Shown: in pieces, positions 17,528 to 19,072 of the stretch
How the letters are laid out: each line of letters starts with the position of its first letter
Position numbering within the stretch: position 1 is the stretch's first letter
Assembly: GCF_000337035.1 (NCBI RefSeq)
Contig: NZ_AOJL01000044.1
Coordinates: forward strand, 1-57,182
Origin: Halorubrum coriense DSM 10284
GTDB lineage: Archaea; Halobacteriota; Halobacteria; Halobacteriales; Haloferacaceae
Direction of reading: 5' to 3'
Length of the DNA: 57,182 nt
Made by a program: the position numbers and the translations under genes
The notes under the pieces: generated by a model
Database searches by the model: none
What the model was told of the DNA's origin: nothing
Seen by the model: only the letters and a program-made list of their open reading frames with translations

Positions 17528-17599
17528 TCTGTCTGCTTTGTAGCGCCTCAAATACGGATATTAAATTGAACGCGCCCAGTTAGAGGGCCTACGCTAGAA

Positions 17600-17615
17600 G
17601 ATAAGTGACCTTATC
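17600..17615. promoter_or_regulatory. Operator-like palindrome GATAAG-4-CTTATC
   Basis: Perfect 6-bp arms with spacer TGAC, centred about 60 nt before ATG 17668 and just upstream of the TATA-like box at 17627. The position suits an upstream regulator site for the DUF5805-like/recombinase operon. Confidence 0.5.
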
Positions 17616-17626
17616 CGGAAATCTGG

Positions 17627-17634
17627 GATATATT
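17627..17634 (+). promoter_or_regulatory. TATA-like box of the DUF5805-like/recombinase operon
   Basis: GATATATT is the best A/T box before ATG 17668. A start of transcription 26-28 nt downstream would fall near 17657, giving a leader of about 10 nt and placing the 17644-17663 palindrome over the start site. Confidence 0.5.
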
Positions 17635-17643
17635 GAAGTGACC

Positions 17644-17663
17644 CGAACGAGAACCCTCGTTCG
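17644..17663. promoter_or_regulatory. Operator-like palindrome CGAACGAG-4-CTCGTTCG
   Basis: Perfect 8-bp arms with spacer AACC, ending 4 nt before ATG 17668 and overlapping the predicted transcription start. This is the strongest palindrome in the region and is well placed for repression, possibly autorepression by the encoded ribbon-helix-helix-like protein. It could alternatively be a binding site of the tyrosine recombinase. Confidence 0.6.
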
Positions 17664-17667
17664 AGAG

Positions 17668-18048
17668 ATGGGAGGCGACCGACAGTCGGTGAAGACGTAC
17701 GTGCCGACGGAACAGAAAGACGTGTGGCGCGACCACGCCGACGAACTCGACATGTCGCTGAGCGAGTTCGTCAGGACGATGGTCCAAGCCGGGCGGCGAG
17801 GGTTCGCGCCGGCCGAGTCGCCGGAGCGCGAGGAACCCGCTTCCGAACCCTCTGACCCTAGGGGTCACGACCTGAAAAGCGGCGTCCGCGAGGCCCTTGA
17901 ATCGGGCCCCCGTTCGTGGGACGAGCTCGTCGAGGCGGTGGTCGGCGACGTGGAAGACGAGCTCGAAGCGACGCTCGACGAGCTCCAAGATCGAAACCGC
18001 GTTCGATACAGCGGTCGCGACGGGGGGTACGTGTTGACCGATGAGTAG
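17668..18048 (+). CDS. DUF5805-like putative DNA-binding protein
   Basis: A 126-aa protein. Residues 1-45 (SVKTYVPTEQKDVWRDHADE, then MSLSEFVRTMVQAGRRG) have the strand-helix-helix pattern of a ribbon-helix-helix (CopG/MetJ-type) DNA-binding fold. Residues about 70-126 (KSGVREALESGPRSWDELVE ... YVLTDE) look like a winged helix. A polar linker joins them. This matches the haloarchaeal DUF5805 family as I remember it; the DNA-binding role is inferred. ATG 17668 is chosen over an earlier in-frame ATG at 17605 because the latter would precede the TATA-like box. Its last 8 bases (ATGAGTAG) overlap the recombinase start, so the two are coupled. Confidence 0.78.
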   Translation: MGGDRQSVKTYVPTEQKDVWRDHADELDMSLSEFVRTMVQAGRRGFAPAESPEREEPASEPSDPRGHDLKSGVREALESGPRSWDELVEAVVGDVEDELEATLDELQDRNRVRYSGRDGGYVLTDE

Positions 18049-19072
18049 CACGCGCGCGGCCCCCGACCCCGACGACCCGGTCGGGTACTTCCTCGAAGAC
18101 CTCACCTACCACGGGAAGACGGACCGAACCAGGGAGGCGTACGAGCGAGTCCTCCGGCGGTTCGAGGCGTTCCTCGACGGTGCCGACCCGGGGTCGGCGT
18201 CGCATCGCGACTGTATGTCGTTCGTCCACTCGCTGCGGGGGGACGTCGCGGACAGCACCGTCGCGACCTACGCCGCGTACCTCCACCGGTTTTACGGCTA
18301 TATGACGGAGGTGGGCGCGTTCGACGGGAACCCGATGACGCTCGTGATGGAGGAGATGGACGAGACCGTCGACAAGGACCCCGCTCGCCGCGACGTCTCG
18401 ATCCCGGCGATGCGGTCGTTCGTGGCCGGGATCCGCCACCCGCTCCACCGCGCGCTCGTCGTGACGCTGTTGAAGACCGGAATGCGGGTGGGAGAGCTGT
18501 GTAACCTTGACCTGCGCGACGTCTCGGTCGTCGACGCGGAGCTCGAAGCGGCGTACTCGCTCGGGGACCGACCGGCGCTCTCCGAGCGGCCGGACTCGGT
18601 CTTCGTGACGGCCGAGGCCGCCGTCGGCGAGGAGCTGAACGGCGAGGTGCGGACGGCCGCGAACAAGCGGAAGCGCGGGACCGTGATTCCGGTCGACGAC
18701 GAACTCCGTCGGACGCTGAAGCGCTGGCTCGCGGTCCGACCGGACTCGCCGTCGCCGGCCGAGCCCCTGTTCGTCGGCACCGCGGAGGGGTGGGGCGAGC
18801 GGCTGGAACCGCAGGCGGTCAGGCACGCGGTCGAGCGATACGCTAGGGAGGAGGGGTGGTATCGCACGGGCGGCGGCGCCGACGAGAACGTCACTCCTCA
18901 CTACTTCCGCCACTTCTTCACGACGCACCTCCGGGACCGGACCGGCGACCGCGGCGTGGTGAAGTATCTCCGGGGTGACGTCGCCGACGACGTGATCGAC
19001 ACGTACACCCACAACTGGGGGGACCAAGTCCGAGAGACGTACGAGGCGAACGTCTACCGACTGTTCCCCTAG
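18041..19072 (+). CDS. Tyrosine recombinase / XerA-like integrase
   Basis: A 343-aa site-specific recombinase. The N-terminal core-binding (SAM-like) domain spans about 12-110 (YFLEDLTYHGKTDRTREAYE). The catalytic domain shows all expected residues: Arg I in KTGMRVGELCNL (about 148), the beta-hairpin Lys in ANKRKRGT (about 207), H-x-x-R in TPHYFRHFFTTHL (about 286-289), His in YTHNW (about 322) and the nucleophile Tyr in RETYEANVY (about 333). An insert of about 40 residues lies between Arg I and Lys. It is intact, therefore probably active. The overlapping DUF5805-like gene suggests a resident regulated recombinase rather than a phage leftover; no phage genes or att repeats are visible around it. 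Confidence 0.9.
   Translation: MSSTRAAPDPDDPVGYFLEDLTYHGKTDRTREAYERVLRRFEAFLDGADPGSASHRDCMSFVHSLRGDVADSTVATYAAYLHRFYGYMTEVGAFDGNPMTLVMEEMDETVDKDPARRDVSIPAMRSFVAGIRHPLHRALVVTLLKTGMRVGELCNLDLRDVSVVDAELEAAYSLGDRPALSERPDSVFVTAEAAVGEELNGEVRTAANKRKRGTVIPVDDELRRTLKRWLAVRPDSPSPAEPLFVGTAEGWGERLEPQAVRHAVERYAREEGWYRTGGGADENVTPHYFRHFFTTHLRDRTGDRGVVKYLRGDVADDVIDTYTHNWGDQVRETYEANVYRLFP

Follow-up and report, generated by a model that had tools for sequence, protein, structure and literature searches.

A dif-like inverted repeat upstream of a class-wide DUF5805–tyrosine recombinase operon in haloarchaea: a candidate recombination site

Introduction

Among the described systems, the one closest to the locus reported here is XerA/dif of Thermococcales and Thermoplasma, which likewise comprises a single chromosomal archaeal tyrosine recombinase with a SAM-like and a catalytic domain (Cortez et al., 2010, PMC2958812). 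In a dif site, a 6-bp spacer separates two arms of 11 bp each (PMC8371274). In bacteria, XerS/difSL of streptococci and XerH/difH of epsilonproteobacteria are modules of one recombinase and a near-symmetric site that adjoins the recombinase gene (PMC5357621). Within haloarchaea, the integrase operon of the pleolipovirus SNJ2 encodes a tyrosine recombinase that is co-transcribed with recombination-boosting small proteins, one of which is predicted to bind DNA (PMC8371274). For Haloferax volcanii, a review published in 2020 counted 12 XerC/D-like genes, four of which were deleted without loss of viability, and left haloarchaeal dif sites and a termination role undetermined (PMC7776575).

Here, we analyze a 57,182-nt stretch of chromosomal DNA from Halorubrum coriense (hereafter the window), in which a gene of the DUF5805 family precedes a gene for an Xer-like tyrosine recombinase and a short inverted repeat lies upstream of both (Table 1). 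The locus resembles XerA/dif in its single-copy candidate site, with a 6-bp spacer and inner arms of the ATAA/TTAT type, and it resembles XerS/difSL and XerH/difH in combining one recombinase with a near-symmetric candidate site beside the gene. It differs from XerA/dif in that the recombinase scores below the XerA profile cut-off, carries Asp in place of His/Trp and has a DUF5805 partner, and also in that the site lies in the promoter region of the recombinase operon and has a spacer of no fixed orientation. The streptococcal and epsilonproteobacterial systems are set apart by being bacterial and FtsK-dependent and by having no DUF5805-like partner, and the difSL spacer is 11 bp long. The SNJ2 operon, in turn, is viral and serves integration at a tRNA gene, with the integrase as orf1 and with coiled-coil and MarR-like partners that are not known to be DUF5805 proteins.

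Table 1. Coordinates of the features discussed, as positions in the window.
Feature	Position	Strand	Evidence
GATAA, left arm of the conserved repeat; candidate half-site for the recombinase	17600..17604	+	ATAA invariant in 49 Halorubrum species; repeat in 186/203 loci
Spacer GTGACC, 6 bp, asymmetric; relatives have this or the reverse-complement form (GGTCAC)	17605..17610	.	15 orientation changes on the 49-species tree, aligned flipped pairs, controls
TTATC, right arm of the inverted repeat	17611..17615	+	Same conservation and tree analyses
Promoter-like element GGGATATATTGAAG (GGGATAGATTGAAG in relatives)	17625..17638	+	Repeat-anchored column conservation; upstream comparison
Palindrome 2, CGAACGAG-4-CTCGTTCG; perfect here, not conserved, probably chance	17644..17663	.	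Upstream regions of relatives and chance expectation
DUF5805 gene; ribbon-helix-helix at about residues 7–43, linker, winged helix at about 66–123	17668..18048	+	PF19121, alignment, AlphaFold secondary structure (modest confidence)
Xer-like tyrosine recombinase gene; R149, K209, H287, R290, D313, Y322	18041..19072	+	PF00589, 190 homologues, fold match 4a8e

Results

The Gene Pair and Its Distribution

The operon is flanked by a major-facilitator transporter gene on one side and by a PAP2-type phosphatase gene, followed by ftsY and a prefoldin gene, on the other. The best start of the first gene is an ATG, which gives 126 codons, and the gene overlaps the intact recombinase gene by 8 bp, as the first-pass annotation of this DNA had described. 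The encoded protein is a member of Pfam family PF19121 (DUF5805; residues 56–121, E = 6.6e-28, 97.3 bits against a gathering threshold of 28.5). The Pfam model spans the winged-helix C-terminal part only, its entry describes neither the ribbon-helix-helix (RHH) half nor the upstream site, and no paper of the literature searched mentions DUF5805. Alignment and predicted secondary structure point to an RHH-like N-terminus, in which an SVKTYVP stretch is followed by helices 14–26 and 31–43, and to a C-terminal winged helix of three helices and a two-strand wing. Together with the Pfam match they support the earlier view of the leader gene as an RHH plus winged-helix protein, which is probably correct, the AlphaFold model being of modest confidence (mean pLDDT 66). 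Matches to RHH antitoxin, Arc and MazE in a check of the RHH superfamily were all weak, and a Foldseek search with this low-confidence model gave no significant match.

The second protein belongs to the tyrosine recombinase superfamily by its Phage_integrase domain (PF00589, E = 1.4e-17), its fold and its nucleophilic Tyr, and the archaeal Xer structure 4a8e was among its best structural matches. Five catalytic residues (R149, K209, H287, R290 and Y322) are invariant among 190 homologues, and the sixth position is D313 (codon 18977–18979) instead of His or Trp, with Asp present in all 189 sequences that have this residue. On the XerA equivalog profile NF040815 the recombinase scores 110.6 bits against a curated cut-off of 220; this score and the Asp at the catalytic His/Trp position rule out canonical XerA as its identity. 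No gene in 25 haloarchaeal genomes reached the XerA cut-off, so a different recombinase must perform chromosome resolution there, if it is performed.

DUF5805 was found in 383 of 391 Halobacteria genomes, representing 83 of 86 genera, and in 165 of the 170 genomes of the family Haloferacaceae. It lies immediately 5' of the recombinase gene in every core-set locus checked, and in two families without a Pfam match (f5 and f11) a divergent RHH–winged-helix gene still precedes the recombinase. The gene pair was linked in all loci tested, so that synteny is conserved, and the pair is a class-wide chromosomal core operon rather than cargo of a mobile element. None of the viral contigs carried a close relative of the recombinase. 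Both genes are absent from one near-complete single-contig genome (G101, 98% complete), which appears to have lost them. Distant paralogues of the pair, whose recombinases are 29–35% identical, were seen at three loci (L365, L366 and L370); in place of the dif-like repeat, they are preceded by inverted arms of 8 bp around a 7-bp spacer, for example AAAGAGTG-CACAGGA-CACTCTTT, and these repeats are possibly attachment sites of mobile elements.

The Conserved Inverted Repeat

Both palindromes noticed previously are present, GATAAGTGACCTTATC (palindrome 1, 17600–17615) and, nearer to the first gene, CGAACGAGAACCCTCGTTCG (palindrome 2). A-T-rich 6+4+6 repeats number two in the window against 0.27 expected. 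Conservation upstream of orthologous gene pairs, which the first-pass annotation had named as a test, holds for palindrome 1: of 203 loci examined across Halobacteria, 186 have the GATAAG-4-CTTATC repeat before this gene pair, usually about 60–70 bp before the start codon and at a nearly constant distance from the promoter element. The dif-like repeat next to the gene at these loci is a candidate for a recombination site of the single-recombinase Xer type. In the 51 Halorubrum genomes searched, the perfect palindrome 1 gave 14 matches, all at this operon and none elsewhere, that is, one site per chromosome in each of the 14 genomes holding the perfect form.

When the alignment was anchored on palindrome 1, ATAA-N6-TTAT and not GATAAG-N4-CTTATC emerged as the invariant unit. 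Of 106 diverse loci, only 41 have complementary bases at the innermost G..C pair, and all have A..T at the next pair outward. Changes in the arms are two-sided (GATTA..TAATC, TCTTA..TAAGA), with pair 3/12 complementary in 104 of 106 loci, although counts at the positions favored by the locus scan (TWAG-N4-CTWA) are somewhat inflated. Covariation across the dyad gave z values of 5.5 for pair 3/12, 2.9 for 0/15, 4.2 for -1/16, 2.9 for -2/17 and 2.6 for -4/19, and the last three pairs covary although they lie outside the reward of the site-finding score. The arms are strongly symmetric over about 5 bp each and more weakly so out to about 9 bp, with no clear extension to 11 bp, and complementarity within the spacer is at or below expectation. 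The asymmetric 6-bp spacer, the symmetric conserved arms, the ATAA/TTAT sequence, the single copy and the adjoining tyrosine recombinase gene together make this layout dif-like.

A second conserved motif, TAG-N4/5-CTAC, is found in many Halorubrum on the upstream side of the site center, at a distance of about 21 bp, or two helical turns; in the window it occupies 17580–17594, with homologous columns at -20 to -7. In a search of viral contigs for elements integrating at the site, the exact 16-mer had six matches, on contigs of 39–57% G+C; none shared flanking sequence with the promoter region studied here, and they were taken as chance.

Spacer Orientation

The spacers of 49 Halorubrum species fall into two forms, GTGACC and its exact reverse complement GGTCAC, each with variants. 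About 15 changes of spacer orientation were placed on the tree of these species, against no change in the eight ATAA/TTAT columns. Flipped sister pairs were also observed in other genera (L039/L040, L148/L149 and L112/L220), with flanks that otherwise align straight through. All of these flips come from comparisons between species, and none was seen within one species. In pairwise comparisons, which are not independent events, the spacer of the site was flipped in 70 and identical in 156 of 239. For control short inverted repeats from the same 7-kb loci, with 4-bp arms conserved between the two species compared, spacer flips to the reverse complement numbered 1 in 585 noncoding comparisons (a small set, from 156 positions) and 0 in 12,586 coding comparisons (a set under selection).

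Displaced, Shared and Missing Sites

In three genomes from two lineages (G271 and G349 of one genus, and G168), a complete site lies 1.6–3.3 kb from the operon, while the promoter and an apparent right half-site, read by eye, stay with the operon. The arrangement would fit an insertion or inversion of DNA at the site. The loci concerned are L063 (5290–8500), L122 (1000–3120) and L247; in L063, the site is inverted and is separated from the operon by two VapBC-like pairs and a threonine-synthase-like gene. In four genomes of family f4 (G212, G360, G365 and G293; loci L350, L359, L360 and L369), two divergent operons have a single dif-like site between them, and one of the two operons in each genome has only a partial DUF5805 match, mostly to the C-terminal half.

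Where gene pairs reside on large non-chromosomal replicons (two replicons, of Natrinema and Halomarina), the site is present too, and an orphan DUF5805 gene without recombinase on a Halobaculum plasmid has none, cases so few that they weigh little. Families f5 and f11 are also without this form of the site. In genera g10 and g16 the recombinase is intact and no recognizable site was found within 13–16 kb; at loci L047, L053, L172, L174, L179 and L249–L253 of these genera, the intact pair has neither the site nor the usual promoter element upstream. Candidates for relocated sites in genera without a site at the operon turned out to be random DNA or unrelated coding sequence, and the equal distance seen in two genomes, about 113 kb, was coincidental.

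Discussion

Our best reading, to which we assign a probability of roughly 0.55, is that the operon is a recombination module and that palindrome 1 would be the site of its recombinase, possibly doubling as an operator. A recombination site is favored over a plain operator by the ATAA-N6-TTAT layout, the asymmetric and flipping 6-bp spacer, the survival of the site away from the promoter and its absence at the orphan DUF5805 gene. Counting against it are the near-fixed distance to the promoter, which such a site would not need, the arm symmetry that does not clearly reach 11 bp, the genera g10 and g16 without a recognizable site and the families f5 and f11 without this form of it, the Asp in the sixth catalytic place, and the finding of neither a flip within one species nor a recombination product; either theory would have to explain why g10 and g16 keep an intact recombinase with no recognizable site nearby. 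With few independent changes available, arm type could not be linked to residues of the recombinase, and E265, in the helix before HxxR, was a tempting covariate that was set aside for having too few such changes on the tree.

Alternatively, the repeat could be an autoregulatory operator, bound by the RHH part of DUF5805, which would repress or activate its own promoter while the recombinase acts elsewhere; we regard this as the main rival, at less than even odds. RHH proteins commonly bind inverted repeats of this kind, the half-sites are 10–11 bp apart, and the near-constant distance to the conserved promoter element argues for contact with the transcription machinery. Residue 5 of the RHH strand is non-aromatic mostly together with TTAG arms (16 of 18 loci), but this association reflects about three residue changes and has no power, and the usual Tyr is found with TTAG arms as well; for RHH strand residues in general, independent changes on the tree were too few for a test of covariation with arm type. 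Flips could be accommodated, as a symmetric dimer would be indifferent to spacer orientation and template switching during replication could invert hairpin loops, but other short inverted repeats show next to no such flips. Moreover, the site persists far from the promoter in three genomes, and one orphan DUF5805 gene has no site. Of the autoregulated recombination module envisaged in the first-pass annotation, the intact recombinase, the leader gene and one conserved palindrome, set at a fixed distance from the promoter, are upheld, whereas palindrome 1 as a plain operator is made doubtful by its layout and flips. A site serving both recombination and regulation is possible, and it may reconcile the facts most simply.

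It is improbable that an unrelated host regulator drives the operon from this site with neither encoded protein contacting it: the fixed promoter geometry would suit such a regulator, but with the perfect site only at this operon in 51 genomes it would have one target, and the asymmetric flipping spacer would be left unexplained. Least probable, and already largely refuted, is the notion that both palindromes are operators, since palindrome 2, a perfect GC-rich 8+4+8 repeat near the expected transcription start that had been taken for an operator, is lost in the nearest relative (L006, with a 95% identical protein) and not kept in the 47 other Halorubrum species compared, and is at chance level, with nine such perfect repeats in the window and about 4.7 expected. 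Within the last 60 nt before the RHH codons of the 49 species, there was no other perfect 8+4+8 repeat, one scoring 7 of 8, and a search for further genomic copies of palindrome 2 found only look-alikes with two mismatches.

If palindrome 1 is a recombination site, the Xer-like recombinase would act on a single-copy inverted repeat before its own operon, with one monomer on each ATAA/TTAT arm and strand exchange across the 6-bp spacer, whose asymmetry would make the site polar. Encoded on the transcript of the recombinase, DUF5805 would most likely assist or restrain the recombinase and/or set the expression of the operon, and, when bound at the promoter-adjacent site, it would also autoregulate. 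The comparison establishes the gene pair, the repeat with its layout, conservation and uniqueness, and the spacer flips; that the recombinase binds and cuts palindrome 1, its function in resolution and what DUF5805 contributes are inferred.

Haloarchaea have several replication origins and are polyploid, with about 20 genome copies, and to our knowledge they are without FtsK. The most likely job of the module would be chromosome upkeep, namely the resolution of multimers of these polyploid genomes, as by XerA/dif, XerS/difSL and XerH/difH elsewhere. More tentatively, we propose that a non-XerA recombinase and its RHH–winged-helix partner resolve haloarchaeal multimers at a site in their own promoter region, and that antiparallel pairing of the near-symmetric arms in polyploid cells has repeatedly inverted the spacer, leaving an evolutionary record of recombination; this combined proposal is possible rather than probable. 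If the spacer flips between fixed arms do reflect recombination, they would be an unusual evolutionary footprint. The comparison singles out one class-wide, usually single-copy recombinase operon for the unlinking of multimers in haloarchaea, and its conserved repeat is a candidate for their missing chromosome-resolution site. With an exact candidate site of 16–20 bp, the question of chromosome resolution in haloarchaea would become testable in one model organism.
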